Of a DNA stretch of 35,259 nucleotides, positions 7,676 through 29,328 are shown one piece after another. The notes under the pieces were generated by a model. The model did not search any database, was not told where the DNA came from, and saw only the letters and a program-made list of their open reading frames with translations. Each line of letters opens with the position of its first letter. The first letter of the stretch is position 1. The position numbers and the translations under genes were made by a program. The DNA is from a virus, in IMG/VR virus record IMGVR_UViG_3300025701_000030, positions 1 through 35,259 of that record; one strand, 5' to 3'.

Positions 7676-7677
7676 TT

Positions 7678-8580: not shown

Positions 8581-8644
8581 ATTATACGCCCCAGGAATAC
8601 GCTTCGGCAATCACTTGGTCCCCTTAAGAAACCCTAAAGACACT

Positions 8645-8666: not shown

Positions 8667-8695
8667 TTAAGAGGTATTAAATATAGGAATTATAA

Positions 8696-9011: not shown

Positions 9012-9022
9012 AGGAGATAGAA

Positions 9023-12275: not shown

Positions 12276-12951
12276 GAAACAAATACAAGAGTTAGCCCTT
12301 AAAGGAACCCCTGTTCCACCATGTAAACTTGTTAAACCTAAGACTAAGAACCAACATAAACTATGGACTGCTCTACTGAACAATCCCTTAGTATGTGGTA
12401 TTGGTTTCGCAGGAACAGGTAAGACATTTGTAACAGGTATGACAGCTTGCAGTATGCTTACCGATGGTAAAGTTAAACGTGTCATCATCACACGTCCTAA
12501 CGTGCCTACAGGGAGAACCCTAGGTCATTTTCCAGGCACTGTAGCTGAGAAGATGGAACCATGGTTAGCACCTATTACAAGTGTACTTAAGGATGGTTTA
12601 GGTAATGCTAAGTATGAAGCTATGATTGATAAAGAAATACTTATACAACCTCTAGAGACTATCAGAGGGCAATCCTTTGAGGATGCATTCATTATCGTAG
12701 ATGAGTCTCAGAACTTAAGTATGGATGAAATAAAAGCATTGACTACCAGGATTGGTGAGGGATCTGTAATGGCTCTCATTGGGGATCCACAACAGTCAGA
12801 TGTACGTGATGGCAGTGATCTACTTAAGTTTGTACACTTATGTAATGCATCAGGAATAGATGTACCCCTAGTGGAGTTCCAGATAGCTGACATTGTACGT
12901 TCAGAGATGTGTAAGAAACTAATAACTATGTTCTATGAGGAAGGCCTATGA
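12265..12951 (+). CDS. PhoH-like ATPase
   Basis: This 228-residue protein shows the PhoH P-loop domain: Walker A GFAGTGKT at 47-54, Walker B FIIVDESQN and LIGDPQQSD. IRGQSFEDAF is a family hallmark. PhoH proteins are RNA- or nucleotide-related ATPases and are frequent in marine phages; their role during infection is unsettled. I chose ATGGCGAGT at 12265, with GAGGA eight bases upstream, over an in-frame ATG 15 bases earlier. It overlaps RusA by 11 bases and the next gene by four. Confidence 0.9.
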   Translation: MASKKQIQELALKGTPVPPCKLVKPKTKNQHKLWTALLNNPLVCGIGFAGTGKTFVTGMTACSMLTDGKVKRVIITRPNVPTGRTLGHFPGTVAEKMEPWLAPITSVLKDGLGNAKYEAMIDKEILIQPLETIRGQSFEDAFIIVDESQNLSMDEIKALTTRIGEGSVMALIGDPQQSDVRDGSDLLKFVHLCNASGIDVPLVEFQIADIVRSEMCKKLITMFYEEGL

Positions 12952-13160
12952 AGACTTGGCGAGTTAAGACAACAAAAGATATTGACACAGTACAAGCAGA
13001 TGACTTACAATACACTCAGGTGTGTGCTAAGTTTGTCAAGAAAGAAGAACAAAAGGCAGGAGCTATCATTATGTCTGATGGTCCTAAGGAGATAGATGTT
13101 ATCTCTTACCCTTACCAGAATGTGATATCTATTGAGGAGATCACTGATGGCGAAGTATGA
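12948..13160 (+). CDS. Hypothetical protein, 70 residues
   Basis: It starts in an ATGA overlap with the PhoH gene. The N-terminal half is lysine-rich (KTWRVKTTKDIDTV, FVKKEEQKAGA). The second half looks beta-like (EIDVISYPYQNVISIEEI). Its end overlaps the zinc-ribbon gene by 14 bases. No family is recognised. Confidence 0.6.
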   Translation: MKTWRVKTTKDIDTVQADDLQYTQVCAKFVKKEEQKAGAIIMSDGPKEIDVISYPYQNVISIEEITDGEV

Positions 13161-13347
13161 TTACCATTGTAACAACTGTGGGTATGAGGTCATAGACTAC
13201 GTCAAGGGTATGACTGAACCACATCCACCATGCCCTGATTGTGACAGTAAACTATCAGTAGTGTATAACACTTCAGCAAGCGTAGGTAACACAGGGTTTT
13301 GCCCAAGCAGACCTACAGGTGTTCTAACAAATAAGGTAAAGAAATAA
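13147..13347 (+). CDS. FmdB-type zinc ribbon protein
   Basis: This 66-residue protein begins MAKYDYHCNNCGYEV and has a second pair in CPDCDSK, the four-cysteine zinc ribbon of the FmdB family. The C-terminus is basic and flexible (SRPTGVLTNKVKK). Such ribbons bind zinc and probably nucleic acid or protein partners. GAGGAG upstream supports the ATG at 13147. The stop overlaps the next start by one base. Confidence 0.75.
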   Translation: MAKYDYHCNNCGYEVIDYVKGMTEPHPPCPDCDSKLSVVYNTSASVGNTGFCPSRPTGVLTNKVKK

Positions 13348-13598
13348 TGGTAAACCTCGAAGAATTAACTAAAAGAGAAATAATAGAAAAACTACACGAA
13401 ATAGGTGAAGAACGTTGTGAACAAAGACTAATGCGTCAGAACAAAGACAGTCTGATTAGACTGCATGCTACCCTTTTAAAAATGAAAGAGATTAAAGAGA
13501 TAGAGGAAGAGTGTGAGAGCGATAAGAAAAATACCTTATCTCGTTACCTAATCCTTAGTGCTCTATTGTTATGTCTTTTATTACTATCAGGAGTGTAG
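13347..13598 (+). CDS. Coiled-coil protein with C-terminal membrane anchor
   Basis: The first 60 residues are charged and helical (ELTKREIIEKLHEIGEERCE, EIKEIEEECESDKKN), suited to a coiled coil. Residues 66-83 are one hydrophobic helix (YLILSALLLCLLLLSGV), so it would be tail-anchored in the inner membrane with the helix in the cytoplasm. The start overlaps the previous stop and the MazG gene starts one base after its stop. No family is recognised. Confidence 0.65.
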   Translation: MVNLEELTKREIIEKLHEIGEERCEQRLMRQNKDSLIRLHATLLKMKEIKEIEEECESDKKNTLSRYLILSALLLCLLLLSGV

Positions 13599-13599
13599 A

Positions 13600-13902
13600 A
13601 TGAACTTAAACGAATTAGAAGCAGCAACAATTGTATGGGGATATGAGAAAGGTATCCTGCCAAACCCAAGTGCATCAGCACAGTTTAGCAAGACCCTTGA
13701 GGAAGTCCAAGAGTTATCAGAAGCTATCTCTGAGAGTGATATCTTTGAGGTGAAGGATGCCATTGGGGATATCATGGTTACCCTTATCATGCAGACTCAA
13801 GCTTGGGATACAGATTTAACAGAGTGCCTTACACAAGCATACGAGACTATTGCTAAACGTAAAGGTAAGATGGTGGACGGTATATTCGTTAAGGAAAACT
13901 AA
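13600..13902 (+). CDS. MazG-like nucleotide pyrophosphohydrolase
   Basis: This 100-residue protein has the MazG metal-binding pattern: KTLEEVQELSEAI followed by FEVKDAIGDIMVTL, i.e. EExxE then ExxD. It would hydrolyse nucleoside triphosphates, or perhaps (p)ppGpp-like alarmones as suggested for some phage MazG proteins. The ATG at 13600 follows CAGGAG; a frame extension to 13558 reads through the anchor of the previous gene and is rejected. It is a single-domain form common in marine phages. Confidence 0.85.
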   Translation: MNLNELEAATIVWGYEKGILPNPSASAQFSKTLEEVQELSEAISESDIFEVKDAIGDIMVTLIMQTQAWDTDLTECLTQAYETIAKRKGKMVDGIFVKEN

Positions 13903-13912
13903 GGGGTTAGTC

Positions 13913-14059
13913 ATGTCACGTAAACGTAATGCAGCATTTGAATATGAGCAGGAAGTTAACGAGAAGATCCGAGAGAAAACTGGTAAGATGTATAAAGAAA
14001 CCAAACGTAGAAAGAAACAATTAAGTAAGGATGAGATCTTTGAGAACCGATGGAAATAA
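13913..14059 (+). CDS. Basic 48-residue protein
   Basis: The ATG follows TAAGGGG. The product is strongly basic and helical (MSRKRNAAFEYEQEVNEKIR, then KETKRRKKQLSKDEIF), with no hydrophobic core, so it may bind nucleic acid or fold on a partner. It overlaps the next gene by 29 bases. No family is recognised. Confidence 0.6.
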   Translation: MSRKRNAAFEYEQEVNEKIREKTGKMYKETKRRKKQLSKDEIFENRWK

Positions 14060-14258
14060 CCACGAGCAAGAACTGAATGAACTCACTAACCTTATCATGG
14101 ATAACTATGATGTCTATAACTTATCCAGTATAGAGAACAGAGACGTGAGAGAAACCGTAGAGTTTATGATGTCTAACTGGAAAAATATAAATCAAAGCTA
14201 CAAAGTGTGGCGTGTCAGTATGACATTAAGAACTCTTAAAAACCTACTAAACCAATAG
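14031..14258 (+). CDS. Hypothetical helical protein, 75 residues
   Basis: The frame is open from an ATG at 14031, with TAAGG abutting it; an in-frame TTG at 14040 or an ATG at 14098 are other possible starts, and none has an ideal ribosome binding site. The sequence is helical (QELNELTNLIMDNYDVYNL, RETVEFMMSNWKNI). It sits tightly between two genes and its stop is 17 bases before the primase start. No family is recognised. Confidence 0.5.
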   Translation: MRSLRTDGNNHEQELNELTNLIMDNYDVYNLSSIENRDVRETVEFMMSNWKNINQSYKVWRVSMTLRTLKNLLNQ

Positions 14259-14275
14259 AATCAGAGGACAAAACT

Positions 14276-15913
14276 ATGATTGAATCACAACTAATATCAG
14301 GTAAGTACCCATGTAATAACTGTGGTTCATCTGATGGTCGTGTGAAAAGAGAAGACGGTAGCAGCTTTTGCTTCGTATGTAATACAAACTTTAAGAACTC
14401 AGAGGACACTATGGAGTTATCAAATGCTGGAACTACCACCAATACTAATACTTATGAATCAGTGGAAGCTGTTTCTAATTATCGCAGCTTTGCTCTTAGT
14501 TCGAGAGGTATTTCGAAGAAAGTAGTAGATGCCTTCGGTGTTAAGATGTCTACCTCAGAAGATGGTAAAAGACCTGAAGCACACTACTACCCGTTCACTA
14601 AAGCAGGTCAAGTAGTAGCCTATAAGAAACGTGGGTTACCTAAAGTGTTCAGCACAATAGGTGACTTCAAAGGAGCAGACTTGTTCGGTCAGAACATCAG
14701 TACCAATGGGCGTACCTTAGTTATCACTGAGGGTGAGCTAGATGCACTGGCTGTTGGTCAAGCATACATGGATAAGTATAACCGCTTGTACCCTGTAGTG
14801 TCACTACCTAATGGTGTAGGTTCCCTTAAGTCTATCTTACACAACCTAGAGTTTGTTCGTAGTTATGAAACTGTTGTCCTTATGTTTGATATGGATGAAG
14901 CGGGTCAATCTGCTATCACTGAAGCTGCAAAGATGGTGGGTATTGGCAAGGTTAAAGTTGCAAAGTTGAAAGAGAAAGACCCATGTGATGAGTTAAAAGC
15001 TCACGGCTCCAAGGCTATCCTTGAGGCTATATGGAATGCACAAACGTGGAGCCCTGCAGGTATTGTAATGGGTGAAGCTATCTGGGAACAGTTCATGGAA
15101 CGTAAGAACGTTGAGTCTGTCCCTTACCCTGATTGTTTAGGAGGATTAAATGAAAAACTTGATGGTATTAGATATGGTGAGATTACATTGTTTACATCTG
15201 GCACGGGTAGTGGTAAGTCCACTGTTATCAAAGAGATTATCCTTGATCTTCTTGAGAAGACTGGCGATAAGATTGGACTCATATCTCTCGAAGAAAGCGT
15301 GGGAGATACTGCGGAAAAACTTATCAGTATGGCGCTCAAAAGACCAGTCGGTGGCCATCCGCCCATTACTGACGAAGAACTTAGACATGGATATGAAAAG
15401 GTATTTGGTGACGAAAGACTTGTCATGCTCGACCACCAAGGTTCGGTAGGTGATTCTGGTCTTATCAATAAGATTGAATACATGGCACTCATGGGCTGTA
15501 AGTACTTAGTACTAGACCATATTACTATTGCTGTGTCAGAAGGAGCTGATGGTCTATCAGGTAATGAAGCAGTAGATAAAGTAATGTCTGACTTACTAAA
15601 GGTTGTTAAGCAACACAACGTATGGTTAGGGCTTATCTCTCACCTTCGTAAGTCCCAAGGGAAATCCTTTGAGGAAGGACAGTTACCTTCTATTGATGAC
15701 ATTAAAGGGTCTGGTTCCATTAAACAAATCTCGTTCGACATCATAGCCTTTGCCCGAAACTTAATTGCGGAGGAGGAGTATGAACGTAATACAATTAAAC
15801 TCCGAGTCCTTAAGTCTCGTTTCACTGGTAAGACAGGTGATGCAGGTGCAGCTATCTACAACGCTGAGACCTCACGCTTAACCCAGGGACAGGTAGGGTT
15901 CGAAATGATCTAG
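14276..15913 (+). CDS. Primase-helicase, T7 gp4-like
   Basis: This 545-residue protein joins an N-terminal zinc finger (C13, C16, C32, C35), a TOPRIM primase domain (VITEGELDAL, LMFDMDEAGQ) and a hexameric DnaB/gp4-type helicase. The helicase has Walker A SGTGSGKST at 308-316, LVLDHITI as Walker B, ISHLRK, and a C-terminal arginine region (LRVLKSRFTGKTG) as in T7. It would unwind DNA ahead of the polymerase and lay lagging-strand primers. AGAGGA lies before the ATG. Bases about 15200-15430, over Walker A and after it, use more C- and G-ending codons (ACG, GCG, CTC, CCG) than the flanks, which may mark a recombinant patch. Confidence 0.95.
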   Translation: MIESQLISGKYPCNNCGSSDGRVKREDGSSFCFVCNTNFKNSEDTMELSNAGTTTNTNTYESVEAVSNYRSFALSSRGISKKVVDAFGVKMSTSEDGKRPEAHYYPFTKAGQVVAYKKRGLPKVFSTIGDFKGADLFGQNISTNGRTLVITEGELDALAVGQAYMDKYNRLYPVVSLPNGVGSLKSILHNLEFVRSYETVVLMFDMDEAGQSAITEAAKMVGIGKVKVAKLKEKDPCDELKAHGSKAILEAIWNAQTWSPAGIVMGEAIWEQFMERKNVESVPYPDCLGGLNEKLDGIRYGEITLFTSGTGSGKSTVIKEIILDLLEKTGDKIGLISLEESVGDTAEKLISMALKRPVGGHPPITDEELRHGYEKVFGDERLVMLDHQGSVGDSGLINKIEYMALMGCKYLVLDHITIAVSEGADGLSGNEAVDKVMSDLLKVVKQHNVWLGLISHLRKSQGKSFEEGQLPSIDDIKGSGSIKQISFDIIAFARNLIAEEEYERNTIKLRVLKSRFTGKTGDAGAAIYNAETSRLTQGQVGFEMI

Positions 15914-15926
15914 GAAAAGAAATCAT

Positions 15927-18065
15927 ATGACATGGACTGAAGAAGTACAAATGTACCTATTAGGACAAATAACTGATAGGTACAGAGCTAGACACTTAGG
16001 TATTAAAACACTTAAGGAACTAGAAGGTGTCTCTCCTTCACAAGTAGAATCCTACGTGGGCCTAGCTCACGAGGTTATCTCCTCAGCATGTGGTCAGACA
16101 CTAAAGGATACTCCGGATAGTGGTTACAGCTGCAAGCTAACACTAGCGAGTTCTACCATAGGCCGTAAGATACTATCAACATTCCGTGTAACAGAGGATA
16201 GGAAGGACACCAAGATCTACCTGATGATTGGTGACCTAATAGTGGAAGCCTTCTTTAACTGTGAGCTAATAGATATAGACATACCTGAAGTCCCCGAGGG
16301 TTCACGCACATGGACACCACCTGTGACAATAACACCAACTGAGACATGGCCTGTAGATGTACCTGAATGTTCATCCAAGTACAGTATACGTGGTTCATTC
16401 TTCAAGAAGCCTAGGGATATATCACAACACTTCCAAAGAATACCGATTGATGGTACAGGATTAGTGTCTTTCGTTAAGATCATTAAGAACTGGTCGGAAG
16501 ACAATGGTCTAGACTTTCGTAAGATGGCAAGGACTCCTGCTCTACAAGCTGTGAGTAGACTACAACAGACAGGTTGGGTTATTAACAAGGATGTACTACG
16601 TGTTGTCGCTGACAAGCCTGAGGCTTTCTTCAAGGCTGGTAGTAAAGAAAAGAAACAGGTATCTCAAGAGATAGAGTACAACTACATACTGTCTAAAGCT
16701 AATGCATTTGAAGACAGAGAGTTCTTCATGGCAGCTGACATGGATTATCGAGGTCGTATCTACTTCAAGGAATCCTTTCTTAACTTCCAGGGTAGTGACT
16801 TAGCTAAGGGTCTGTTAACATTCTCAGTGGCTAAAGAGGTTACCCCTGAAGGACTCCGTTGGTTAAAGATACACACAGCTTCTAGTTACAATGAGTCTTA
16901 CAACATAAACAGAATACCCGAGTGGTGTACATCAGACTACAAGACATACCTGCAGTCAGAAGGACTAGAGGATATCTCTGTGGATAAGATGACACTACGG
17001 GATAGAGAACTATGGTGTGACAACAATGAGGAACTAATAAATGAAACAGTTAAGAACGGAACGATACACGAGTGTGAGAAACCTGTTAACTTTCTGGCTG
17101 CTGCTATTGAGTTATCTAGTTATTGGGATTGTGATGGCACCTTTTATAGTAGTCTTCCTATCCCTGTGGATGGTAGTAACAATGGTTGGCAGCATCTTGG
17201 AGCCATCAGTAAGGACACACAAACAGGAAGACTAGTTGGACTAGAACCTGTGGGTATACAGAATGACTTCTATGTTCAGTGTGCTAAGAAACTGATAGAG
17301 TTAACTAACGATGAAAGAAGAAGTCAGATACTAAGTGACATGCCTATGAAGCACATACGTAAGTACATAGCTAAACGTGGTAGTATGACACGTGCTTACT
17401 CAGCTGGTATGGGTAAGATACGTGACAACATGTATGCTGATTGCCGCAAAGGTAATGCACATAGGGCTTATGGGATAACCCTTGAGGACTGTGAGGGCTT
17501 CGCTAAGGACCTTATAAAGGCCATAGAGAAGACTTGCCCTGGACCCCTGAAGACTATGAAGTTCCTGCAGAAGTTAGCAGGTGAGCTGGTTGAGAGTAAA
17601 GCAGATGCCATCACTTGGGAAACCCCAGCAGGATTCCCTGTGATATACAAGAAGGGTTACTTGAAGAAGATGAAAGTGAAGGGAACTATCCGAGGGTACG
17701 GTAAGAAGAAAGGTACTCGAGGTAGGGTCAACCATGTGTTACAGTTCGAGTCTGATATACTAGACCCACGTAAGGTAGCCTGTGGTGTGTCGCCTAACTT
17801 CATACACTCTAATGATGCAGCTCATATGCAGTTGGTTATCAATGAGTTCGATGGTTCTTTCGGTGCTATACATGACAGCTTCAGCACACATGCAAGTCAA
17901 GTGGATGAACTTATAAGAAAAACAAAAGAGATCTTCGTTGATATGTATAGCGTAGATAATTATTTTAACTTAATAGAAAAGAAGTTAGGAGTGACATACA
18001 CACAACCACCCTTAGGGGATCTGGATGTAGCAGATGTGTTCTTCTCAGATTACTTCTTTGCCTAA
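15927..18065 (+). CDS. T7-like single-subunit RNA polymerase
   Basis: This 712-residue polymerase shows DMDYRGRIY (D273 to R277), motif A PVDGSNNGWQH (D415), motif B AKRGSMTRAYS (K483, Y491), PNFIHSNDAAH (H627) and motif C AIHDSF (H649, D650). The K-to-Y spacing of eight equals T7. T7 RNA polymerase is 883 residues; here the N-terminal part before DxxGR is about 150 residues shorter, which may alter promoter recognition or the initiation-to-elongation switch. It is encoded at the end of the left arm rather than near the start as in T7, so it would be made with the replication proteins. AGGAAA lies nine bases before the ATG. Confidence 0.95.
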   Translation: MTWTEEVQMYLLGQITDRYRARHLGIKTLKELEGVSPSQVESYVGLAHEVISSACGQTLKDTPDSGYSCKLTLASSTIGRKILSTFRVTEDRKDTKIYLMIGDLIVEAFFNCELIDIDIPEVPEGSRTWTPPVTITPTETWPVDVPECSSKYSIRGSFFKKPRDISQHFQRIPIDGTGLVSFVKIIKNWSEDNGLDFRKMARTPALQAVSRLQQTGWVINKDVLRVVADKPEAFFKAGSKEKKQVSQEIEYNYILSKANAFEDREFFMAADMDYRGRIYFKESFLNFQGSDLAKGLLTFSVAKEVTPEGLRWLKIHTASSYNESYNINRIPEWCTSDYKTYLQSEGLEDISVDKMTLRDRELWCDNNEELINETVKNGTIHECEKPVNFLAAAIELSSYWDCDGTFYSSLPIPVDGSNNGWQHLGAISKDTQTGRLVGLEPVGIQNDFYVQCAKKLIELTNDERRSQILSDMPMKHIRKYIAKRGSMTRAYSAGMGKIRDNMYADCRKGNAHRAYGITLEDCEGFAKDLIKAIEKTCPGPLKTMKFLQKLAGELVESKADAITWETPAGFPVIYKKGYLKKMKVKGTIRGYGKKKGTRGRVNHVLQFESDILDPRKVACGVSPNFIHSNDAAHMQLVINEFDGSFGAIHDSFSTHASQVDELIRKTKEIFVDMYSVDNYFNLIEKKLGVTYTQPPLGDLDVADVFFSDYFFA

Positions 18066-18074
18066 GGGACCCTT

Positions 18075-18224
18075 ATGGGATTATGTGGATTAACAGATGA
18101 TGAGATTGCATCAGGGTACTACTATGACAGTAGTGGTAACCTATGTAACAAGTATGATATCTTCGAAGAGGATATTGCAGAACAAGAACTAATAGATAAA
18201 CTTTATGGAGATGCTAATGAGTGA
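18075..18224 (+). CDS. Acidic 49-residue protein
   Basis: AAGGGA between the RNA polymerase stop and this ATG is a good ribosome binding site. The product is acidic (GLTDDEIASGYYYDSSGN, IFEEDIAEQELIDKL) with two cysteines. It overlaps the next gene by eight bases. No family is recognised. Coupling to the polymerase gene would suit a polymerase partner or inhibitor, as T7 lysozyme is for T7 RNA polymerase, but nothing in the sequence shows it. Confidence 0.6.
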   Translation: MGLCGLTDDEIASGYYYDSSGNLCNKYDIFEEDIAEQELIDKLYGDANE

Positions 18225-18453
18225 CAAGAACTACCTTGCAGCACAGGGTGTGACAGACCAAGAGATCATAGATGAGTTTGGAAACCCAGGTGATGAAGAC
18301 ATAGATCTATATGCAGCACGTATGGTACGTGAGAGGAACAAGAACCTGTATATGGAGCAAGGCATGAAAGAGAAAGAAGCTAATGCCAAGGCACACAAAG
18401 GTTACGCTGTTACGATGAACCGTATACGTACATCTAAGAAGAACAAGAAGTAA
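18217..18453 (+). CDS. Hypothetical protein, 78 residues
   Basis: I chose the ATG at 18217, with GGAG at 18207-18210; in-frame ATGs at 18205 and 18211 are possible. The N-terminus is acidic (GVTDQEIIDEFGNPGDEDID) and the C-terminus basic (RIRTSKKNKK), with a helical middle (ARMVRERNKNLYMEQGMKEK). It is the last gene of the left arm, and the terminator begins at its stop. No family is recognised. Confidence 0.65.
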   Translation: MSDKNYLAAQGVTDQEIIDEFGNPGDEDIDLYAARMVRERNKNLYMEQGMKEKEANAKAHKGYAVTMNRIRTSKKNKK

Positions 18454-18509
18454 AAAAAAGAACCCCCTAGAGATTACCATTACGGTAGCCTTTAGGGGGT
18501 ATATTTTTT
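18454..18509 (+). terminator. Bidirectional terminator between converging arms
   Basis: ACCCCCTA (18462-18469) pairs with TAGGGGGT (18493-18500), with a smaller TACC/GGTA hairpin inside. An A-run lies to its left and a T-run (ATATTTTTTTT) to its right, so it can stop transcripts from both sides. It fills the gap between the stops of the converging arms. Confidence 0.93.
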
Positions 18510-18926
18510 TTATTTCTTACCGACTACCTTGAGGTAATCTTGAGCCTTCTTCATGAGCTCTTCTTTAGTTAGTTCGTCATAGGACATTTCAACTACTGTA
18601 CTTTCAACACTAGCTTTCTTAGCTGTCTCATAGGGAGCAAGCTTAGTTGCTAGGTCTTCAGCCTTATCATAGTCACCCTCTTTCAGGGCCTGCATCATGC
18701 TTAAGCGTAACACTTCCACTGCTAAGGGTGCATCATTGGCTACCTCAGAGTAGTCCTTGTATCCCTTAGTGAACTCTTTGAGTGCTTCACGCTCTGCCTT
18801 CTGGCGTCTACGTGTTTCCAATCCTTTCTCTCGAGCAGCATTGGATGTCTCTGAAGTAAACTGTGGAGCAGCGTGTGCCTTAAGTGCTGCAATACTGTTA
18901 GGGTTTTTCCCTTGGTTACCTGCCAT
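18510..18926 (-). CDS. Last late gene, 138-residue basic-N-terminus protein
   Basis: AGGAGG precedes the ATG at 18926. The N-terminus (MAGNQGKNPNSIAALKAHA, then AREKGLETRRRQKAER) is basic, and the rest helical and acidic (SYDELTKEELMKKAQDYL). The combination of a glycine/asparagine-rich start, a basic helix and the segment ALKEGDYDKAEDLATKLAPY recalls some phage terminase small-subunit-like proteins, but the match is loose and the gene is far from where terminases are expected. It could equally be a small virion protein. It is transcribed last in the late arm, directly after the polymerase-like gene. Confidence 0.7.
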   Translation of the reverse strand: MAGNQGKNPNSIAALKAHAAPQFTSETSNAAREKGLETRRRQKAEREALKEFTKGYKDYSEVANDAPLAVEVLRLSMMQALKEGDYDKAEDLATKLAPYETAKKASVESTVVEMSYDELTKEELMKKAQDYLKVVGKK

Positions 18927-18937
18927 AGGTCCTCCTA

Positions 18938-21900
18938 TTAATGGGCATAATATTGATAGTTCTTCACACCTTGTTTGTTAATCTCAGCAATAAGCTTCTT
19001 CTGCTTACCCTTGACTTTCTCATAGTGTGCGTCTAGTTGTTGTTTAATGTTAAAGTTTCTTAAGAAATAACTGTAGAGTTCTTGTAGTTGTCTTCCAGTT
19101 ATAGTCTCAGGTTCTTTAGTCATGTCGAACCCTTGGTTCTTCATAGCCTGCATGAGGGACTTAGCATGTTGGTATGCGATCTCAGAATCATTGATGTAAC
19201 TGAATACCTCAATGGCACCAGATGGGTAAAGGTTACCCTTCTTACTCATGGAGACCTCTAAGAGTTGAGCAAAGAATGGATCTATATCTGTCATATTCAT
19301 AGTAGATTTAGGATCAATTGCTTTAGCAGTCTCAGTCATCTCTGTGCGTAGTTCTTCTACTGACTCACTCATAGCTTTCAAGAAGCTCCACTGGGTGTTA
19401 GCATCGAACCAGTTCTGGTTTAACTCTTCAAGTATGACATCATAACCATTAGCATCCATCTTCACAGCATCATAGATTGAGTGGAAGTATGGGTTACCTT
19501 TGGATGCCTTGTTAAGTTTAGCCCAAGAGCTACCAGTCACAGTGTTAGTGATAGCATATGCATCTGTTGCATGGATAGGACCAGGAACAGCAGCACCTAC
19601 AGCATTGAACTTACCTTGCTTGACTATGAAACCAAAGTCATCATAGACATTCCCTTTACGAGACCTAGCGTTCTGCTCACCCTTCGCATACTTAACAGCT
19701 TCTTTCTTCTGACCATCAACCATATACTGGATACGTTCTTCAACGTTACCCAAGGTTGACTCATCTACCCCACCGAACTTCAAGGGGAAACCACCAGGTC
19801 CGTCTATCTCAAACAAACGATTAGCCATTGCAGCGTAGAATGCAGAAGCTTTCATTAAACCCCTTGAGTGTATAGCATCAGGATCTAGTACGTCCATGAT
19901 AGCAGACTCATATGTGAGTAACAGGTAGTCACCTACGTTGTAGGTAGTACCGTTCATCTTATTCAACTCAGCTATCTTACTGTTGACAATATCTAAAGCC
20001 ATAGAGAAGTTATCTAACTTACTCCGCTGCTTACCTGTTGCATCCATCCCATCAGCTGCTTGTTGTATCTCACGTGAGAAGTCATCCATCATCCCTTTGA
20101 AACCAGAGATATCCATGCCGTAACCGAATACCATTGTGGTTTTCTTATTGAAGTCACGCCAGTTAAAGATACCTTTAGCTACATCATACATCTCTGTCTT
20201 AACATCATCAAGTTCAGAGATACCTTCTAAGCCATTGTTGGTATCCTCTAGTCTAGCGTTAAGGTTATCAGCTAGTTGGTCACGTATATCACCATCATCA
20301 AGGAGGTTGATATCGTTGGTACGTAATACACCAGTTGATAGTGCCAGTTCAATAGAGCCCATCTGTAAACCCATAGCTGCTAGGCCATTGGTCTTACCAT
20401 CGATGTAAGCATTGAAATATGAGTAGTGCTTAAGACCTTTAGTCATAGCTGTGTCGTACTTATAGAAGTCTATTAGACCATCTATGAAGTGTTGACCGTC
20501 TTCACCTTTATTTGCAATCGCCTCAATCAGTTGTGCATCCTTCTCAGGATCTAACTGTAATCCCTTGACCTTAGGAAACTTAGGGTCATTAAGGGCAATA
20601 CCTTGTTGAATAGCAGTAGCAACAGCTTCAAGCTCACTATCAGTCATTGAGTTATTCAAGACTTCATTCAATCGCTTACCCCAAGCTGCAAGCTTGAAGG
20701 TATTAGCCTTGACAGCTAGTTCACGTTGAACTGGTAGCAACGTATCAGCATCTTTAACTAACATCATAGCGTACATCTGACGTAGGTTCTGGTCAGTACG
20801 ACCACCCCTTTTGATCTCCACAGGTGTAGCGTTACGAGTTACGAAACGTACAGGCTTAGATGTCGTAGGGTTGAAGTGTGTTTGGTTAGGTGTTAAACGA
20901 CCAGCAAAACCTTGAACAGTGTAGGTCAAGTAGTTGGCACCATTACGTTCCGTAGCAATACCAAAGATCTCTTGGGCTGCTTTGTTCTTAAGGGCTTCCA
21001 TGTTTTCAAACGCAGAGTAAGGTTTACCTTCTACAATCTGACCACTAGCACGTAGCTCTGCATCTTGTTTCTCAAGCGCATTGAACTTGTTAGCCTGGGC
21101 TTGACCTAGGTTATTAACAGTACCAAACAGATCACTCAGTGGGTTCTGAGCACCTTGTAGCACTGGTAGCATAGTGCTATATAGAATCTTCTCACGTTGC
21201 TTGTCAACAACATTAGGTATAGACGCTAAGTTCTTAACAGCCTGATTAGTTCTACGATGGTTCTCTGCCTTTCTCTTATTCTTCTTAGACTTCTTGGCAC
21301 CTGTCACTTTCTTAGTGATCTTCTTACCTTCACCTACCTGTCTACCTGTAGGAGACGGAGACTTGAGTGTTCTTACATGTTCTTTAGGGAACATCAAACG
21401 TCTAGCTGTAGAGGAATCATTCATCTTCTCAACGCCTACATTGGTAAGCTCGAATTGAACTTGACTACCTACCTGCTTACGGTTAACCATGTCAGGGTTA
21501 GCTTTCGCATAGACCTCTTTGAACATGTCACCAAGCAGAGTAGCTTGTTCTTCTGACAGGTTAGACTCAGACTCACCTCTAGTCTCTTTAACAAACTCTT
21601 CATGTATCTTACGACCTAACTGTGCGTTCTGTGATTGCTTCTTAGCATATGCACCAGGTGCCAGTTCTATATCTTCTTCCATAATCTCTGGTTCAAAAGA
21701 GTCCATATCTTCTTTCTTCTTAGCAGAGAACTCTTGAGCTAGGAAGTCTTCTGTTACTAGTGAACCAATAGTAAGGAAGTCTGAATCAAACTGAATAGTT
21801 TCCTTACGACCAGTACCCTGTACAGCACCTATATCTTGTAGTGTCTGAGGTAATGGTGCACCTTCACCTAGTAACGCCTTGTCTCTACCTATCTGTGTCC

Positions 21901-22423
21901 CCAATACGATAGAGCCTAGACTCTCAAAAGTCCCATCAGGATTCTGTTGGAAGTTATTAACCTGCTTAGGTAAGTTCTTTGCACGATCAAAGATACCACC
22001 ATCCCTGCCATACTTAGACTGGAATGCCACACCTTTACTCTGTGCTTCTGCCTTACGTTGGTAAGTGTTAATACGTTCCCCATGGAAACCTTGATGGTAA
22101 CGCTTACGAACACTATCTATCTTCTCATTCTCTAACTGTGCTTTCCCCTCAGGGGTCTGTGTGTACTGACCTTCAGCAGACTTATCAAAGTCATCTGAGC
22201 GTTGACCTTCTATGTCAGCTTGTTGTTTGAAAGCTTCATACTCACCGTTGATTACCGCATCCAATACGGGATCACTAAAGCCAGTGTCCTCAACTTTAGG
22301 GGTAGCCTCGGGGGCTACCTCCTGGGTAGTTGGTGTGGCTTGTGGGACATTTGATTGTAACTGCTCGACTGCCGAGGGCTTATCGAAACTAGTTGCAATA
22401 CCTGCGCTAAATTTACCAGCCAT
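18938..22423 (-). CDS. Virion RNA polymerase-like protein (single-subunit RNAP motifs)
   Basis: This 1161-residue protein lies among ejection-protein genes. Four regions match single-subunit RNA polymerases in order: GFAGR (505-509) for T/DxxGR, with G in the first position; IDGKTNG (D675) for motif A; WRDFNKKTTMVFGYG (R756, K760, Y768) for motif B, with T7 spacings of 4 and 8; PGPIHATD (H951) and SIYDAV (D985) for motif C, with Y replacing the usual H before the aspartate. Long N-terminal (1-480) and C-terminal parts lie outside this core; residues 375-410 are very basic. By analogy with phage N4 it could be packed in the head and injected to read early genes. The T/DxxGR and HDS changes could instead mean a degenerate enzyme. 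Confidence 0.7.
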   Translation of the reverse strand: MAGKFSAGIATSFDKPSAVEQLQSNVPQATPTTQEVAPEATPKVEDTGFSDPVLDAVINGEYEAFKQQADIEGQRSDDFDKSAEGQYTQTPEGKAQLENEKIDSVRKRYHQGFHGERINTYQRKAEAQSKGVAFQSKYGRDGGIFDRAKNLPKQVNNFQQNPDGTFESLGSIVLGTQIGRDKALLGEGAPLPQTLQDIGAVQGTGRKETIQFDSDFLTIGSLVTEDFLAQEFSAKKKEDMDSFEPEIMEEDIELAPGAYAKKQSQNAQLGRKIHEEFVKETRGESESNLSEEQATLLGDMFKEVYAKANPDMVNRKQVGSQVQFELTNVGVEKMNDSSTARRLMFPKEHVRTLKSPSPTGRQVGEGKKITKKVTGAKKSKKNKRKAENHRRTNQAVKNLASIPNVVDKQREKILYSTMLPVLQGAQNPLSDLFGTVNNLGQAQANKFNALEKQDAELRASGQIVEGKPYSAFENMEALKNKAAQEIFGIATERNGANYLTYTVQGFAGRLTPNQTHFNPTTSKPVRFVTRNATPVEIKRGGRTDQNLRQMYAMMLVKDADTLLPVQRELAVKANTFKLAAWGKRLNEVLNNSMTDSELEAVATAIQQGIALNDPKFPKVKGLQLDPEKDAQLIEAIANKGEDGQHFIDGLIDFYKYDTAMTKGLKHYSYFNAYIDGKTNGLAAMGLQMGSIELALSTGVLRTNDINLLDDGDIRDQLADNLNARLEDTNNGLEGISELDDVKTEMYDVAKGIFNWRDFNKKTTMVFGYGMDISGFKGMMDDFSREIQQAADGMDATGKQRSKLDNFSMALDIVNSKIAELNKMNGTTYNVGDYLLLTYESAIMDVLDPDAIHSRGLMKASAFYAAMANRLFEIDGPGGFPLKFGGVDESTLGNVEERIQYMVDGQKKEAVKYAKGEQNARSRKGNVYDDFGFIVKQGKFNAVGAAVPGPIHATDAYAITNTVTGSSWAKLNKASKGNPYFHSIYDAVKMDANGYDVILEELNQNWFDANTQWSFLKAMSESVEELRTEMTETAKAIDPKSTMNMTDIDPFFAQLLEVSMSKKGNLYPSGAIEVFSYINDSEIAYQHAKSLMQAMKNQGFDMTKEPETITGRQLQELYSYFLRNFNIKQQLDAHYEKVKGKQKKLIAEINKQGVKNYQYYAH

Positions 22424-25400
22424 TATTTATCTCCTAGATAATTCCATCCTGTTTCTATTGACTTACTGATACCCGTAGTTGGTATACCAGTTAACTTGAT
22501 TGCTTTCTCTGCAATGTTGGCATCACCTTCGATACCTTTCCCTACTGTTTCTATTGTTTGTCCTGCTTTACTTAATGCAGGTGATTGACCACTGATACCA
22601 TTCCAAGCCCACTCTGCTAGGTTACTAGAACGATCTTCATACATAGGATACAATGTATCTGTTATACGACTAGCTGTACCTAGTAAACCTGAGGACTCTA
22701 TACCACGACGAATGTATTCCTCTTCATCCAGGTATGGGTTGTCTTCACCGAACTTGAGTAGATCTTTAAGGTACTGTGATAAGAACCCCATTGCTATCAT
22801 CCCTACCATAGTAGAGAATGCACTGTACTTCATAGCAGGTGAACCACGTTTAATATACTCACCCCAGAGTTGAGGGATTATCTTAGCCGTGAACGTAGCC
22901 ATGAAACCTTGGAACTGTGTGAACAATGCAAACCGTGGATCACTGTAGAACAATGGACGGTTACCTGCTGTTGGTGTGACAATCGCATCATTAACAAAGT
23001 TATAAGTAGCGTCACGAGTTAATGAATCAAACAACTCTACCTCTCGAGGAGTAAGAGTCTCAGGGTCTTTCTTCATTATGTTTCTAAGAGTATCCAAGGC
23101 AGTAGGTGTGATGTTGATACCAATGTTTCTTAACTTCTCCTTAGACTCCATGACCTCGTTGGTCATTGGGGTTCCTTCGGGGTGATTAAGTATAGTATCT
23201 ATGTGGTTCAACATGAAGTCACCAGCAAATGATACACGTATTGCACGAGTCATATCTGTGTACTGTGTTAAACCGTTAGCAAGGAAGAATCTCTTTAGCC
23301 ATTTCTGCTTAAGTTGAGATACCTCTGTAACACCTGAGGTTGTAGCAGCACCAACATCCCATGAGTAGAAACCAGCCTTACGTAGATCTTGTTCACGTTT
23401 AGTGCCCCTGTTCTTAAGACTGTTGTATAACTCATCGATGTTCTGTGGGTTACTGCCTTCTGCATTCAGCGTACCTGTCATCTTCTTAGCTGCATCCTTA
23501 GCTATCTCCTTCACCTGCTTCATGTCTTTAGGTGTAAGACCTTTAGTGGTTAGGGCTAGTTCAGGTAATGAAGCAACTGTCGCTGTCCATAGACTAGAGA
23601 TAGTCGTTAGGAAAACAAAGTTTCTTTGCTGCTTAATAATAGCCTTACCTTCTTCAGTCGTAGGACGCTTGTAGTTCCCTGAGTCTGCATCTAAGTAATC
23701 CTTAATACCTTTACCTAGTTTAGCAGCTTCTGCCACAGGCATACCTTCTTTGATTGCTCTAAGAAGTAACGCTGAAACATTCTTACCATTCATACCGACA
23801 TACTTATCATGGGCCTGATACCTAGCAGCAGCGCTTGCAGCACTAGATATGTTCTCAAAGATATCTTGATTCATGAACTTGTTAAACTCTGCACGTTCAG
23901 ATAAACCTAAGGTTCTCTTCTTGTGTGATCCAGGGATTGGTGAACCCTTGGCAAGAGTGAATGCTTCATTCAGGTCATTAACTTGATCGTTCTCAACGAT
24001 AGCTTCTGTAAGAGCGTTAGCATCAGCACGTGATATCTCAAGACCAGGTATCTCCATAAGAAGCTTGATGAAACCATTACGGTCATTATCAATAGCTTGT
24101 TTATCAAAGCCTTTGTACTTCAACAAATAGTTATCTATGTAACCTAGCTTGTCGTTGTATTGCTTTTGATCTCCGTACATCTTATCAGATAACTTCTGTA
24201 AGTCCCTAGCGAATCGTAGGATAAGCCCCTTATGAGGACCAGCAGGTATCAGGTCTTTGTTAATAAGTTTAGTCTCAGGATCTATAGCAGCTCGTGCTTG
24301 TTCATAGATCATCTGACTAACCTTGGCCTTCCCTTTATAATCAGTAGCACCCACACCAAACTGCTTATACATTGCTTCAGGTTCAGGTATTGAACTCTTA
24401 TACTTAGATACTACGTTATGTTTGAAGTTCTCATAAGTATCCCCAGAGTATATCCGTTGTATCTTACCACCGAACATACCTGAGAGTTCTCTAACAGCTC
24501 TGTACTTAGCGATGTCTTTGTTCTTGAACATGTTGTCCAGTGAACCCTTGAAGAACGCTAGGGGGTTTCCTAGGAGTGCCATTGTCTTTTCTGTGAGAGT
24601 CATCTTGCTTCTGTTGTCAGCATGCATCTCAGCAAAAGCATCAAGACCTACTTCCTGTACACGAGCGTACTCTTCCTCTGACATACCATCAGGTCCATCC
24701 AAGGGTGTAGTGTCTTCAATTCTGTCTGCTTCTATCCTAGCCTTCTTAGTTAACGTGTCTGTAGTTGGCATCACTAGACCATTGTCTTCATAATACTTTA
24801 ACTCATCTTCGTATATCTTAGATGCTTCTGATTGGTAATCTGGATCTGCATCAGACAACTTCCATGCAGTGTCACTCCACATAGCTTTATCTTTAACAGT
24901 ACCAACACCACCGAAGATACCACCTAAGGAAGCACCACCAATAGCAGCTTGGATTGCACGGTCTGTTAGCTCATCCCAGTTGATAACGCCATCTGTTTGA
25001 GCCCCAAGGTAACCTATGGTTTCCTGTAGTGCTTCTGTAACACCTTCAGTTACACCTGATTTACCTATGTTCTCCAAGGTATCTAAGAACATACGCTTTT
25101 TGTCTAGTTGAGACTTGGCTGCCTTAGCTGCATCCTTTGACAAAGAGGCTAACTCTTTACGTGTAGCAGCTGCAAGCATAGCAGTAGCTTCTTTCTTAGG
25201 TACACCACTCTTCACCAGGACCTCTAGTCCTTCCTTAAAGAGTTCCTTGGGTGGCCCTGACTTAAGCATAGCTCCAAGACCTAATCGATCAAGGGCTGCC
25301 ATAGTTACACCAGCAGCGATAGCTCTAGTGGCATCCTTCTCTTCGTCTGGTTGCTCTGAGTAAACACCACCAGAGTATAAGCCAGCAACACTACCAAGAC

Positions 25401-26322
25401 CCACTACAGCACCAGCTGTACCAGCAACTGCACCACCTGCAGTACCTATCATAATAGCTGCCATGTAAGGCATGGAGCCAGCAAGAAGATTACCTGCATA
25501 CTCCACTGCATCTCCGAATCCATTCACATCCTGGTAGTTAGACAGGGTCTTAGGGGCTTCAGCTACACGAGCCTTAGCTCTTTGTGTGCCTGCTTCACCT
25601 ATCTCAGACAGAGCTTCGTTACCAGTTATGTCACCTAGCATCATAGCTAACCCATAACCAGCCTCTGTTACTGCTTCAACACCATTATCAAAGGATGTAC
25701 TGAAAGGACTAGTAGCCTCATTGAGTAAGTTCCTGTCATTGTTTTTGAATTGTAAAGCGGAAGTAGTATACTTACCTCCACTGTATGCGTACTGAAGTTC
25801 AGATAATGCTTGCTCTTTAAAGTTCAAGTCATCTTGAGGACCACGCCCCATAGCTTCTTTGAGTTGCTCAGCAATTACCTTATTCTCTTCACTAGCATTT
25901 ATAATAAGTTTGTCACCGAATAGGTCGGCAACTCTCTTGGCATCCATGTCTTCACGAGAAGTGTATGCACCACCTTCCATCATACCAGTACGTATAAGTT
26001 TAGTAGTGAAGCTTTCACCCTTGTCGTTCTGTAAGTCTACTAACCCACGATCATGGGCAGCACCTTCTTCCATCTTAACTACATTGGTAAACCCCTGCTC
26101 TCTTGCAAGACGTTGGATACTCTCGGTAACAACACTGCTACCTTGAGTACCTTGAGCATACATCTTACCTTCCGAGGTATACTTGGAGAGCTCAGGGGCA
26201 TCAAACCCCTGTACACGGTATGACTTCCCTTCTTGATCACGGATGGTATCAGCATCGATGAAGTCGTACTGTCCATTTAGAGTTGTACCATTTATGATTT
26301 TATCTAGTAAGTCATCAGCCAT
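22423..26322 (-). CDS. Large ejection protein with N-terminal nuclease-like domain
   Basis: This 1299-residue late protein opens with a staphylococcal-nuclease-like domain (about 15-115): FIDADTI (D25, T26), SYRVQGFDAPE (R36, D41, E44) and HDRGLVD (R92). These match catalytic R35, E43 and R87 and metal ligands D21 and D40 of the family, at nearly the same spacings. A glycine-rich membrane-like stretch follows near 278-318 (AAIMIGTAGGAVAGTAGAVV), with another near 460. The long remainder is helical, with PTAGNRPLFYSDPRFALF and QFQGFMATFTAKIIPQLW near the end, a pattern seen in large injected phage proteins. It would leave the virion with the DNA. AGGAGG precedes the start; the stop overlaps the next gene. 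Confidence 0.8.
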   Translation of the reverse strand: MADDLLDKIINGTTLNGQYDFIDADTIRDQEGKSYRVQGFDAPELSKYTSEGKMYAQGTQGSSVVTESIQRLAREQGFTNVVKMEEGAAHDRGLVDLQNDKGESFTTKLIRTGMMEGGAYTSREDMDAKRVADLFGDKLIINASEENKVIAEQLKEAMGRGPQDDLNFKEQALSELQYAYSGGKYTTSALQFKNNDRNLLNEATSPFSTSFDNGVEAVTEAGYGLAMMLGDITGNEALSEIGEAGTQRAKARVAEAPKTLSNYQDVNGFGDAVEYAGNLLAGSMPYMAAIMIGTAGGAVAGTAGAVVGLGSVAGLYSGGVYSEQPDEEKDATRAIAAGVTMAALDRLGLGAMLKSGPPKELFKEGLEVLVKSGVPKKEATAMLAAATRKELASLSKDAAKAAKSQLDKKRMFLDTLENIGKSGVTEGVTEALQETIGYLGAQTDGVINWDELTDRAIQAAIGGASLGGIFGGVGTVKDKAMWSDTAWKLSDADPDYQSEASKIYEDELKYYEDNGLVMPTTDTLTKKARIEADRIEDTTPLDGPDGMSEEEYARVQEVGLDAFAEMHADNRSKMTLTEKTMALLGNPLAFFKGSLDNMFKNKDIAKYRAVRELSGMFGGKIQRIYSGDTYENFKHNVVSKYKSSIPEPEAMYKQFGVGATDYKGKAKVSQMIYEQARAAIDPETKLINKDLIPAGPHKGLILRFARDLQKLSDKMYGDQKQYNDKLGYIDNYLLKYKGFDKQAIDNDRNGFIKLLMEIPGLEISRADANALTEAIVENDQVNDLNEAFTLAKGSPIPGSHKKRTLGLSERAEFNKFMNQDIFENISSAASAAARYQAHDKYVGMNGKNVSALLLRAIKEGMPVAEAAKLGKGIKDYLDADSGNYKRPTTEEGKAIIKQQRNFVFLTTISSLWTATVASLPELALTTKGLTPKDMKQVKEIAKDAAKKMTGTLNAEGSNPQNIDELYNSLKNRGTKREQDLRKAGFYSWDVGAATTSGVTEVSQLKQKWLKRFFLANGLTQYTDMTRAIRVSFAGDFMLNHIDTILNHPEGTPMTNEVMESKEKLRNIGINITPTALDTLRNIMKKDPETLTPREVELFDSLTRDATYNFVNDAIVTPTAGNRPLFYSDPRFALFTQFQGFMATFTAKIIPQLWGEYIKRGSPAMKYSAFSTMVGMIAMGFLSQYLKDLLKFGEDNPYLDEEEYIRRGIESSGLLGTASRITDTLYPMYEDRSSNLAEWAWNGISGQSPALSKAGQTIETVGKGIEGDANIAEKAIKLTGIPTTGISKSIETGWNYLGDK

Positions 26323-26330: not shown

Positions 26331-28268
26331 CTATTTAACGTTTCGTTCATCTAACCCTAAGCGATTGGCTAGGAATACATAGAAACCATTCTCACCTTTG
26401 TTGGCTAGATTGTTCCATTTCTTTTGCTTGTCTTCTAGTTTGTTCCACTCTGGAACTAAAGCTGTGTAGTATTGATTAGCGACATCATGAATATCCTTCT
26501 CACTGCCTTTAGCTTCTAGTCGAGCCTTAATGGCTGAGTTAATATTAGCCATCTTATCAGCATCAATGTACAACTCTTTACCATCTTTGGTTGTCTCACC
26601 TGTTTTAAACAAGTCAGCACTACCACCAGCAGATGTTCTTATTACCAGTTGGTTAAGGAAAGGACGGATATCCGAAGCTCTAGTACGACTAGATCCAGAG
26701 AAGTTGATTGCATCAGTGTAAGCACTTTGTACCAACCCAGCGAGTTCCTCAGGGGGTACGCCAGCTTGGGTAGCCCACTCAGCTATCTCACCTGCAGCTG
26801 TTTGTGGTTTAATGTTAGTACGATACATGGTACCTTCATCACCTTGCATAGAACCATCACGTTTCTCTAACTCAAGAAGTTGCTTAGCTGTTATGTTACG
26901 ATAATCATTGATACGTTGACGATGCTCTTTAGTACCTGTCACTTTATAAGGGTCTGTCTCATACTTAGTAACATCAACTGGTTTACCTTTAGGGTTAACA
27001 AGTACCTTATTACCATTAGCATCTTCACCTTCAAAGAGTGTTGTAGGTTTACCGTCAGGTCCTATAGAACGTATAGGGTTAGCTCTGTCGATCTTACCTG
27101 TCTTCTTATCTTTATACTTGGCGTCTATCTGCTTCTTAATCTCATAGTCTTCTAGGCCTTGTTGACGTTTCTGCTTAGCAGCTTCAGCAGCAGCCTTAGC
27201 ATTAGCTTTCCCCTGAAGACCTTTAACGTATTGACCAGCAGACCAACGTAGAGAACCACCATGACTGAAACCCATAGCTCGACTACCAAGATACATCAAA
27301 GCTTGCTTGGTTAGTTCTTCACTGTCAAGTAGTTCACCACCAACCTTCTTAAACATATCAACCACTGAGCTAAAGAAACCTTTACCTTCTTCAGTCTCTA
27401 CTTCATTTTGACCAGACTTAAGTAGGTCTTCAGCTGAGTACTGTATGAGGTTCTGCTCTTCTTCAGCTTCCCCTGGGAACATATCGTCAACAGATGTCTT
27501 AAGTATGTTAGCGTTATTGAACTCTTGTTGTAGTGCATCTAAGTCTAGGTCAGGGACTTCTTCACCTGTTGGAGGTACATTACCTGTTGGAGGTACATCC
27601 TTTATCTCAGGGACTTGTTCTTCAGATTGAGAAGCAGTACGTCTATCTTGTGTGGACAAAGCACCGCCAGTGATATCATGTATTAAATCACCAGTATCTT
27701 TAGTACCCTCTACCTCCTGAACACCACCACCTTCTCCAGGCAGTGACCCAACACCGAACTCGTCTATCATAGCTGAACCAGTAGGGTTACTGTAACCTTC
27801 TATAGGAACCAAGTTAGGATTCACAGAACCTAAAGCGTTAGTTAAACTTTCAGGTCTCTCAGGTATCAGTGGAAGACTGTTAAAATAATCTTCTATTTTA
27901 GCATCTTTATCAGACACAGCAGTTGGAACACCACCACCTTCATTAAGATACTTAGTATCACACTCACAACCTTTACTGCAACTACCCTTAGAGACATCAC
28001 CACCTTTGTTGTGATACTCAGGTATAGTCCCACCTTGGGCTTTCTGTATAGCACGACCATGGTTATTCATTTGTTCTATCTCTGGACCGAACTCACGTAC
28101 TGCTTCAGCGTTCATTACGAACTCGCCTGGAGTTAACCATGCAGGTACAGTATCGGTCCCCTTAGGGCTCCCTGGGTGATCAGGTATCCCTTGCATCTTA
28201 GGTACATCAAACTCATAAGAGATGGATGAACCGTCAGAATTCTTTTGTGTTACTTTCTTTAAATTCAT
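26331..28268 (-). CDS. Structural protein with VPAWLTPGEFVMN motif, 645 residues
   Basis: GAGGAG lies before the ATG at 28268; an in-frame start 39 bases earlier is less likely. Residues 41-53 (VPAWLTPGEFVMN) form a motif common in phage tape-measure and internal virion proteins. Then come a cysteine cluster (CSKGCEC near residue 95), an acidic proline-rich stretch with the repeat PPTGNVPPTGEEVP, and a basic helical part (ANAKAAAEAAKQKRQQGLED). The C-terminal half is globular (TAAGEIAEWATQAGVPPEEL). It probably forms part of the ejection core with its neighbours. The start overlaps the stop of the gene before. Confidence 0.75.
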   Translation of the reverse strand: MNLKKVTQKNSDGSSISYEFDVPKMQGIPDHPGSPKGTDTVPAWLTPGEFVMNAEAVREFGPEIEQMNNHGRAIQKAQGGTIPEYHNKGGDVSKGSCSKGCECDTKYLNEGGGVPTAVSDKDAKIEDYFNSLPLIPERPESLTNALGSVNPNLVPIEGYSNPTGSAMIDEFGVGSLPGEGGGVQEVEGTKDTGDLIHDITGGALSTQDRRTASQSEEQVPEIKDVPPTGNVPPTGEEVPDLDLDALQQEFNNANILKTSVDDMFPGEAEEEQNLIQYSAEDLLKSGQNEVETEEGKGFFSSVVDMFKKVGGELLDSEELTKQALMYLGSRAMGFSHGGSLRWSAGQYVKGLQGKANAKAAAEAAKQKRQQGLEDYEIKKQIDAKYKDKKTGKIDRANPIRSIGPDGKPTTLFEGEDANGNKVLVNPKGKPVDVTKYETDPYKVTGTKEHRQRINDYRNITAKQLLELEKRDGSMQGDEGTMYRTNIKPQTAAGEIAEWATQAGVPPEELAGLVQSAYTDAINFSGSSRTRASDIRPFLNQLVIRTSAGGSADLFKTGETTKDGKELYIDADKMANINSAIKARLEAKGSEKDIHDVANQYYTALVPEWNKLEDKQKKWNNLANKGENGFYVFLANRLGLDERNVK

Positions 28269-28269
28269 A

Positions 28270-29328
28270 TTAGACTCCTCGGCCTCTGTAATTAGGCATA
28301 GGATCACCTATTATTCCACCACCTGATCTATACGCCACTGTTGTACTTTGAGCATTACCAAAACTCACGGGATACTCATTTGTTTGTAGAGTTTGTCCTT
28401 GCAACCCTACTCCAGTTGGCACTGGTGATGAAGGATCCCTACCTATACCATAACCTCTAGTCCCACCAGGAGCTGTAATAGTAGGTCGAGGTGGAGGTGT
28501 AGTCGGTGGAGGTACTCCCATATCTGGCTGTACTGTAGGTGCCTGTGGTATTTGGTTTTGTGGTGGAGCACCTACGTCATTCCCTGGGTTTGGAAGATTA
28601 GGTATCTCACGAAACCCTACCTTCTTTCTTTCTCTATATTGAATGTTCTCTAGTCCACTGACACCAGGTAGTGAAGACACAGGTATACCAGGGATCCCTG
28701 ATTGAGGTCCCTGTCCTGGTAGTATCATGTTACCTGATGTATCATATGTAACTTGTTGACCGTACTGTGCTTCAATAGGTGTGGTTATATTATCACTGAA
28801 GTCACCTAACCCACCTGTAGTAGGTGAGGTACTCATAGTTGCCCCATCACCGTAGTCAGTACCGAAAACATCACCTTGATTAGGCATAGCACTTACGTCT
28901 ATGGAACTTGGTGGTGGTGCTACAACATCTGTTAAGACACTATCCAGAGTAGCATTAGGGTTAGAACCATAATACTCTGCAATCGCTGGGTCACTGTTTA
29001 CAATGTCTTCAGTGATACGTATAGACTGTTCTTCAGTCAGTAGTGTAGGGGCTGCATCCCCTCTCACTTGAGAATCTGAAGAGTCTCTTCCATACTCGTC
29101 TATTCTAGCTTGAGCCTCTTGTGCTTGAACATCATTACCTGTGGCAACTATTTGATCGGATATGTTCTGCTCTATCGTAGGTATCTGAGGTTGTATATTA
29201 AGACCCCCTGAGACACTTGCAGAAACAGCTTCGGGGTCTATAGGGGGAGCACCCATCATGTCTTGTATCTGTTGTTCAGATAAACCTAAGCTCCGTAAGT
29301 ACTCTATATCACTTTGAGAATATGACAT
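28270..29328 (-). CDS. Proline-rich virion protein, 352 residues
   Basis: The N-terminus has a short UBA-like helix pair (YLRSLGLSEQQIQDMMG). The rest is low-complexity and disordered, rich in P, G, Q, S and T (PPPTTPPPRPTITAPGG), ending YRSGGGIIGDPMPNYRGRGV. Such proteins occur beside ejection proteins in podoviruses and may link or be threaded through the tail. No enzyme motif is seen. Position and tight spacing (three bases from the gene before) support a virion role. Confidence 0.7.
   Translation of the reverse strand: MSYSQSDIEYLRSLGLSEQQIQDMMGAPPIDPEAVSASVSGGLNIQPQIPTIEQNISDQIVATGNDVQAQEAQARIDEYGRDSSDSQVRGDAAPTLLTEEQSIRITEDIVNSDPAIAEYYGSNPNATLDSVLTDVVAPPPSSIDVSAMPNQGDVFGTDYGDGATMSTSPTTGGLGDFSDNITTPIEAQYGQQVTYDTSGNMILPGQGPQSGIPGIPVSSLPGVSGLENIQYRERKKVGFREIPNLPNPGNDVGAPPQNQIPQAPTVQPDMGVPPPTTPPPRPTITAPGGTRGYGIGRDPSSPVPTGVGLQGQTLQTNEYPVSFGNAQSTTVAYRSGGGIIGDPMPNYRGRGV

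Follow-up and report, generated by a model that had tools for sequence, protein, structure and literature searches.

A compact N4-type virion RNA polymerase candidate encoded beside a T7-like polymerase in phages outside Schitoviridae

Phage N4 packs a virion RNA polymerase (vRNAP) in its head and injects it with its DNA. In the N4 enzyme the residue before xxGR is T and motif C reads FDG; the corresponding residues of T7 RNA polymerase are D and HDS. The N4-type vRNAP has been described as a giant enzyme that is unique to Schitoviridae (PMC12633501), and its mini-vRNAP portion contains the TxxGR motif together with motifs A, B and C, all of which keep their catalytic functions (PMC4496689). 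An HMM survey of N4-like viruses placed vRNAP among seven hallmark genes and also recovered matching sequences outside the family, accompanied by no more than two of the hallmarks (PMC10654107). We found no report in the open-access literature of a compact vRNAP encoded beside a T7-like polymerase.

We analyzed the IMG/VR virus record IMGVR_UViG_3300025701_000030 over positions 1 to 35,259, a stretch of 35,259 nt that is called the window here and comes from an uncultured, short-tailed phage. The genes that bear on the comparison with N4 are as follows.

15927..18065, plus strand: P0001, T7-like single-subunit RNA polymerase, 712 aa (Pfam RNA_pol 1.8e-53, phrog_414 4.5e-105)
18510-18926, minus strand: 138-aa ORF after the P0002 gene
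18938..22423, minus strand: P0002, compact N4-type vRNAP candidate, 1161 aa, 0 cysteine
22423..26322, minus strand: P0003, large cysteine-free ejection-type protein, 1299 aa (phrog_6958 virion structural protein, 7e-36)
26331..28307, minus strand: P0004, structural protein that includes a short stretch resembling a tape measure (library match and synteny)

The plus-strand frame across 18938-22423 is full of stops; the P0002 ORF is on the minus strand, where it is the last large gene of a structural operon. The P0003 gene lies directly upstream and overlaps it by one base, and in the relatives described below a P0003-like gene likewise adjoins directly upstream wherever the contig extends far enough. 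In 35 of 35 loci the gene for the T7-like polymerase converges on that of the vRNAP, about 225 to 1043 bases away. N4 follows this plan as well: its minus-strand structural operon closes with gene 50 (vRNAP), which faces the plus-strand gene 49. At the N terminus of P0003 (window 25900-26322), invariant residues D23, D25, R36, E44 and R92 recall the catalytic residues of staphylococcal nuclease. An SNase-like domain was suspected from these residues only and was set aside, as Pfam and PDB profile searches for it gave no match.

The initial annotation had read P0002 as a second single-subunit RNA polymerase on the strength of short motifs, and each of these motifs is present in the protein as described: QGFAGR509, D675GKTNG, R756-x3-K760-x7-Y768-G, PGPIHATD954 and SIYD985AV. 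The pattern Rx3Kx7YG, however, also arises in 198 of 20,000 shuffles of P0002 (~1%), so the motifs alone are unconvincing and an independent test was needed. Searches of Pfam, PHROGs, PDB sequences and 50,697 phage records with P0002 as a single query gave no significant match, and neither did a divergent member of its family. Since P0002 alone finds no library match, detection of such proteins depends on a family profile, on structure or on other members.

Two scans of IMG/VR yielded 46 loci that encode P0002 relatives, and two more were present in metagenome-assembled contigs. Full-length members of this family have 1116-1369 aa. We aligned 36 of them (alignment A2; pairwise identity from 20%, median 32%) and found only 31 invariant columns, among them R509, D675, K760, Y768, G769 and D985. 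Were invariant columns drawn at random, the chance that R509, D675, K760, Y768 and D985 would all fall among these 31 is about 1e-8. The column of R756 holds R in 31 members, K in 4 and S in 1. This conservation across 36 homologues settles that the motifs are real.

The same alignment bears on two deviations from the canonical motifs, the G in T/DxxGR and the Y-D-A of motif C, which had been read either as divergence or as a sign of lost activity. The residue before xxGR is A, G or T in the family members displayed, and most members have YDA as motif C; both deviations are features of the whole family and not signs of decay. Loss of activity is an unlikely meaning for them, because the catalytic residues do not vary among the 36 divergent members. 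An unguided library scan with members taken singly gave a consistent picture, in that 24 of the 36 match phrog_414 RNA polymerase (best 3e-7), P0002 itself having no match. In two genomes the vRNAP-like gene also gives a Pfam RNA_pol signal that is below the cut-off (6e-6 in G010, 5e-4 in G009). The family profile found no match among PDB sequences.

For comparison with N4, we used a mini-vRNAP profile that combines N4 with 11 further N4-like phages, of which ten are recorded as Schitoviridae. A2 matches this profile (hhalign 97%, E 1.1e-10, score 105.8, 823 columns), with P0002 residues 182-1125 aligned to mini-vRNAP residues 128-1096 at an identity of about 13%. E-values of single-pair hhalign runs are not calibrated against a database, and the yardstick is therefore a set of controls: the reversed N4 profile scores 18.8 against A2, and five unrelated families of the same loci (a DNA polymerase, a primase-helicase and three structural families) score 14-24. 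Against a profile of T7-like polymerases A2 reaches 37.3, barely above its reversed control of 32.2, and by hhalign P0002 is not a member of this T7-like (Autographiviridae type) profile. A profile-profile comparison of the kind that had been recommended as a check matches the vRNAP domain of N4 and places P0002 closer to it than to the T7 class. The aligned parts of P0002, with the N4 residues to which they correspond in this register, are listed here.

21884..22423, minus strand: N-terminal extension, P0002 residues 1-180 (mostly low AlphaFold pLDDT)
19049..21880, minus strand: region homologous to N4 mini-vRNAP 128-1096 (P0002 182-1125; hhalign)
20897..20899, minus strand: R509, equivalent of N4 R424 in TxxGR (invariant in 36; N4 register)
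20399..20401, minus strand: D675 in DGKTNG, motif A aspartate, N4 D559 (conservation and N4 register)
20120..20158, minus strand: motif B, R756-x3-K760-x7-Y768, N4 R666, K670 and Y678 (conservation and N4 register)
19562..19564, minus strand: D954 in PGPIHATD, N4 D929 (D in 35 of 36; N4 register)
19469..19471, minus strand: D985, motif C aspartate, N4 D951 (conservation and N4 register)

At motif A the two enzymes share DGxTNG, which is DGVTNG in N4 and DGKTNG in P0002. Hhalign of P0002 alone against N4 and against a T7-like polymerase was not significant, although motif A was correctly aligned, and the A2 HMM reached a best E of 5e-4 against single N4-type sequences, most of which did not rise above shuffles. 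The link to N4 consequently rests on profile-profile and fold evidence.

An AlphaFold model of P0002 based on the 36 sequences has a pLDDT of 75.7 and a pTM of 0.77; pLDDT exceeds 80 over most of residues 390-880 and 940-1150. A Foldseek search of the PDB with this model gave 66 matches at E<=0.001 (best E 3e-15), and the best 50 of the 66 comprise only T7, mitochondrial and N4 single-subunit RNA polymerases. Among the matches listed, the highest query TM, 0.46, belongs to the N4 mini-vRNAP-P2 promoter complex (3c3l); TM-scores of 0.4-0.5 indicate a shared fold class at considerable divergence. In a viral structure library the model matched T7-like polymerases and the virion polymerases of Schitoviridae, and an earlier model built from six sequences had led to the same structural families. 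The predicted structure of P0002 therefore has the right-hand fold of single-subunit RNA polymerases, as the initial annotation had anticipated.

The whole catalytic domain of N4 gp50 thus has a homolog in P0002, and both genomes encode a second phage polymerase. The differences lie in what surrounds the domain. N4 vRNAP has 3,500 aa and P0002 has 1161; P0002 consists of the polymerase domain and an extension of ~180 aa only, falls well short of the giant size (~3,500 aa) of the N4 type, and lacks both the N-terminal domain and the autoinhibitory C-terminal domain of N4. Without these domains, its packaging and ejection would rely on partners. The second polymerase also differs, being the two-subunit RNAPII in N4 and a single-chain T7-like enzyme here.

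The ordinary T7-like polymerase that had been called at 15927-18065 is real, given the Pfam match of P0001. We considered P0001 as a relative of N4 RNAPII and rejected this, as it is much closer to T7 RNA polymerase, which scores 214 bits against the P0001-family profile (vs 32 and 21 for N4 RNAPII). P0001 and T7 RNA polymerase share with P0002 a single-subunit right-hand fold and the order of the motifs, and the catalytic columns of A2 are in register with R277, D415, K479, K483, Y491, D630 and D650 of P0001, in which the arginine column of motif B is a lysine. P0001 differs from P0002 in its normal cysteine content and in being encoded by the replication operon.

This difference in cysteine extends across the group. 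The 36 members of A2 contain 4 cysteines in 41,863 residues (0.010%), whereas the T7-like polymerases of the same genomes contain 633 in 42,894 (1.48%). The P0003 family resembles the former, with 4 in 55,135, and N4 gp50, gp51 and gp52 have 0 cysteine, like P0002. Absence of cysteine has served elsewhere as grounds for proposing vRNAPs: the proposal for StenR_269 and proteins of Zobellviridae was based solely on their size, their helicity and the missing cysteine (PMC10747016). We reject it as a marker of polymerases, since HMO-2011 gp22 (L084) and PA11 gp34/gp35 (L083), which are large and occupy a similar slot, are cysteine-free and showed neither convincing polymerase motifs nor a profile match. 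Because such cysteine-free non-polymerases exist, the pattern supports ejection and passage through the tail, not polymerase identity. Judged from these sequences, the PA11 result would also question the published vRNAP suggestion for Zobellviridae.

Taken together, the kinship with the N4 virion polymerase that had been suggested for P0002 is supported by the profile match, the fold, the gene position and the absent cysteine. P0002 is best read as a compact N4-type vRNAP outside Schitoviridae, without the large flanking domains of N4, and its proposed role in the virion follows the analogy with N4. We think it probable that this vRNAP is active, is packaged and ejected, transcribes early and is then followed by the T7-like enzyme. 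Under this model, P0002 would be made late, together with the structural proteins, and would be packaged alongside the neighboring ejection proteins (P0003-type partners). It would then cross the short tail as an unfolded chain, regain its fold inside the host and transcribe the early phage genes there; P0001, from the end of the replication operon, would serve transcription from the middle phase onward, including the late genes. We extrapolate packaging, ejection and activity here from N4, and we infer both the use of early promoters and the switch from one polymerase to the other.

Some of this evidence would also fit an ejected protein that keeps the polymerase fold, has lost all or most of its polymerase activity and is now mainly structural, serving as T7 gp16 does in the inner-membrane portion of an ejection channel or in DNA translocation. 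Its gene adjoins those of ejection-type proteins, cysteine is nearly absent, ejection-type proteins in the same slot of other podoviruses have no polymerase signal, and the motifs deviate in YDA and A/G-F-x-G-R. We regard this reading as improbable: R509, D675, K760, Y768 and D985 would not be expected to remain invariant in 36 members once catalysis had been lost, and N4 is active despite FDG in motif C (PMC4496689). Slightly less probable again is an active single-subunit RNA polymerase that works inside the cell, for example in late transcription or primer synthesis, and is not packaged. Although the polymerase fold and the catalytic residues would suit such an enzyme, it fits poorly with a gene that is the final large one in the structural operon and adjoins that of an ejection-type protein, with a near-total loss of cysteine that the T7-like polymerase of the same genomes does not share, and with closest relatives that are virion enzymes. 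Chance motif matches in a helical ejection protein without polymerase kinship, an idea that motif B in 1% of shuffles and the lack of a family match for P0002 alone might encourage, are refuted by the family profile, the fold search and the blind PHROG scan, each of which independently indicates an RNA polymerase.

A search for N4-like promoter hairpins (short stem, 3-nt loop) gave no convincing candidate that is conserved across relatives; the promoter-contact residues of N4 are not conserved even within Schitoviridae. In this window only, three intergenic hairpins on the plus strand (889-908, 1692-1713 and 8645-8666) carry an identical 10-nt loop, TCGCAGGCTC, on stems that covary (AACTC/GAGTT, GACCTC/GAGGTC and AACCTC/GAGGTT). 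Each precedes a start codon by a few tens of bases and is only weakly stable as single-stranded DNA; these hairpins are possibly a promoter or a 5'-UTR element. Other repeats were seen in related phages. L072 has three copies of a palindrome-like sequence, CACGCAAGCGTG, in its early or replication region (6871, 8384 and 11753), and arrays of three adjacent hairpins, with stems of 7-8 bp and loops of 3-5 nt, occur in L073 (3377-3439) and L075 (reverse complement, 8546-8605), with stems that differ between these two phages.

Repeats resembling T7-type promoters (CTATAAGG...) stand ahead of the replication and terminase operons in some relatives and were not seen in the window. The repeats CTATAAGGGGTATATA and CTATAAGGAACTTAGA occur on both strands, at 1941, 3940, 4137, 12699 and 12762 in L076 and at 3817, 5633, 5972 and 11930 in L075 (reverse complement), again before the replication and terminase operons, and are likely promoters of the T7-like polymerase. 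Because the T7-like polymerase gene closes the replication operon, and T7-type repeats precede that operon in some relatives, the first transcripts of this gene would need another polymerase, which could be the vRNAP or the host enzyme. A T7-type repeat is also found upstream of the early block, so a scheme in which the vRNAP acts first is not exclusive. Sites resembling sigma-70 promoters number 34 in window positions 1-19000, against 48 +/- 5.5 in shuffles, which is no more than a weak hint.

The window stops short of the portal gene, and we turned to a long relative of 60.7 kb (G001) for the remaining structural genes. Its portal belongs to the same PHROG as that of N4 (phrog_1216, 9.6e-84), whereas its major capsid protein and TerL fall in phrog_1328 and phrog_2, vs phrog_1357 and phrog_38 for N4. 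With the portal in N4's PHROG and the capsid and terminase elsewhere, these are not ordinary Schitoviridae. A cultured marine phage, Roseobacter phage CRP-7, has the gene order seen here: a T7-like polymerase (gp30, 1,111 bits against the family profile), gp33, and a P0003 homolog (gp34, 1,229 bits). The gene between them is the following.

L048 (MK613349) 17859-21566: CRP-7 gp33 (QBQ72826), hypothetical protein, 1235 aa, cysteine-free, in the vRNAP slot

CRP-7 gp33 contains K-x3-R-x7-YG at motif B, where arginine replaces the motif B lysine, and IHDA at motif C. Over its whole length it has no significant match to either vRNAP family profile, and motif A and the xxGR arginine were not identified in it. 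On these sequence features gp33 is a candidate vRNAP relative only.

These observations describe a probable single-subunit virion polymerase in a phage group beyond Schitoviridae, as a stand-alone domain of the size of N4 mini-vRNAP. We lean, by a modest degree, toward an unrecognized lineage outside Schitoviridae that ejects a minimal N4-type polymerase and then uses a single-chain T7-type enzyme, and whose early infection may be independent of host RNA polymerase. A polymerase of this size bears on the role of the other 2,400 residues of N4 vRNAP and on how a polymerase passes a narrow tail. CRP-7, which is cultured and has the same gene order, is a possible bench system for these phages, in which the transcription strategies of N4 and T7 would be linked within one genome.
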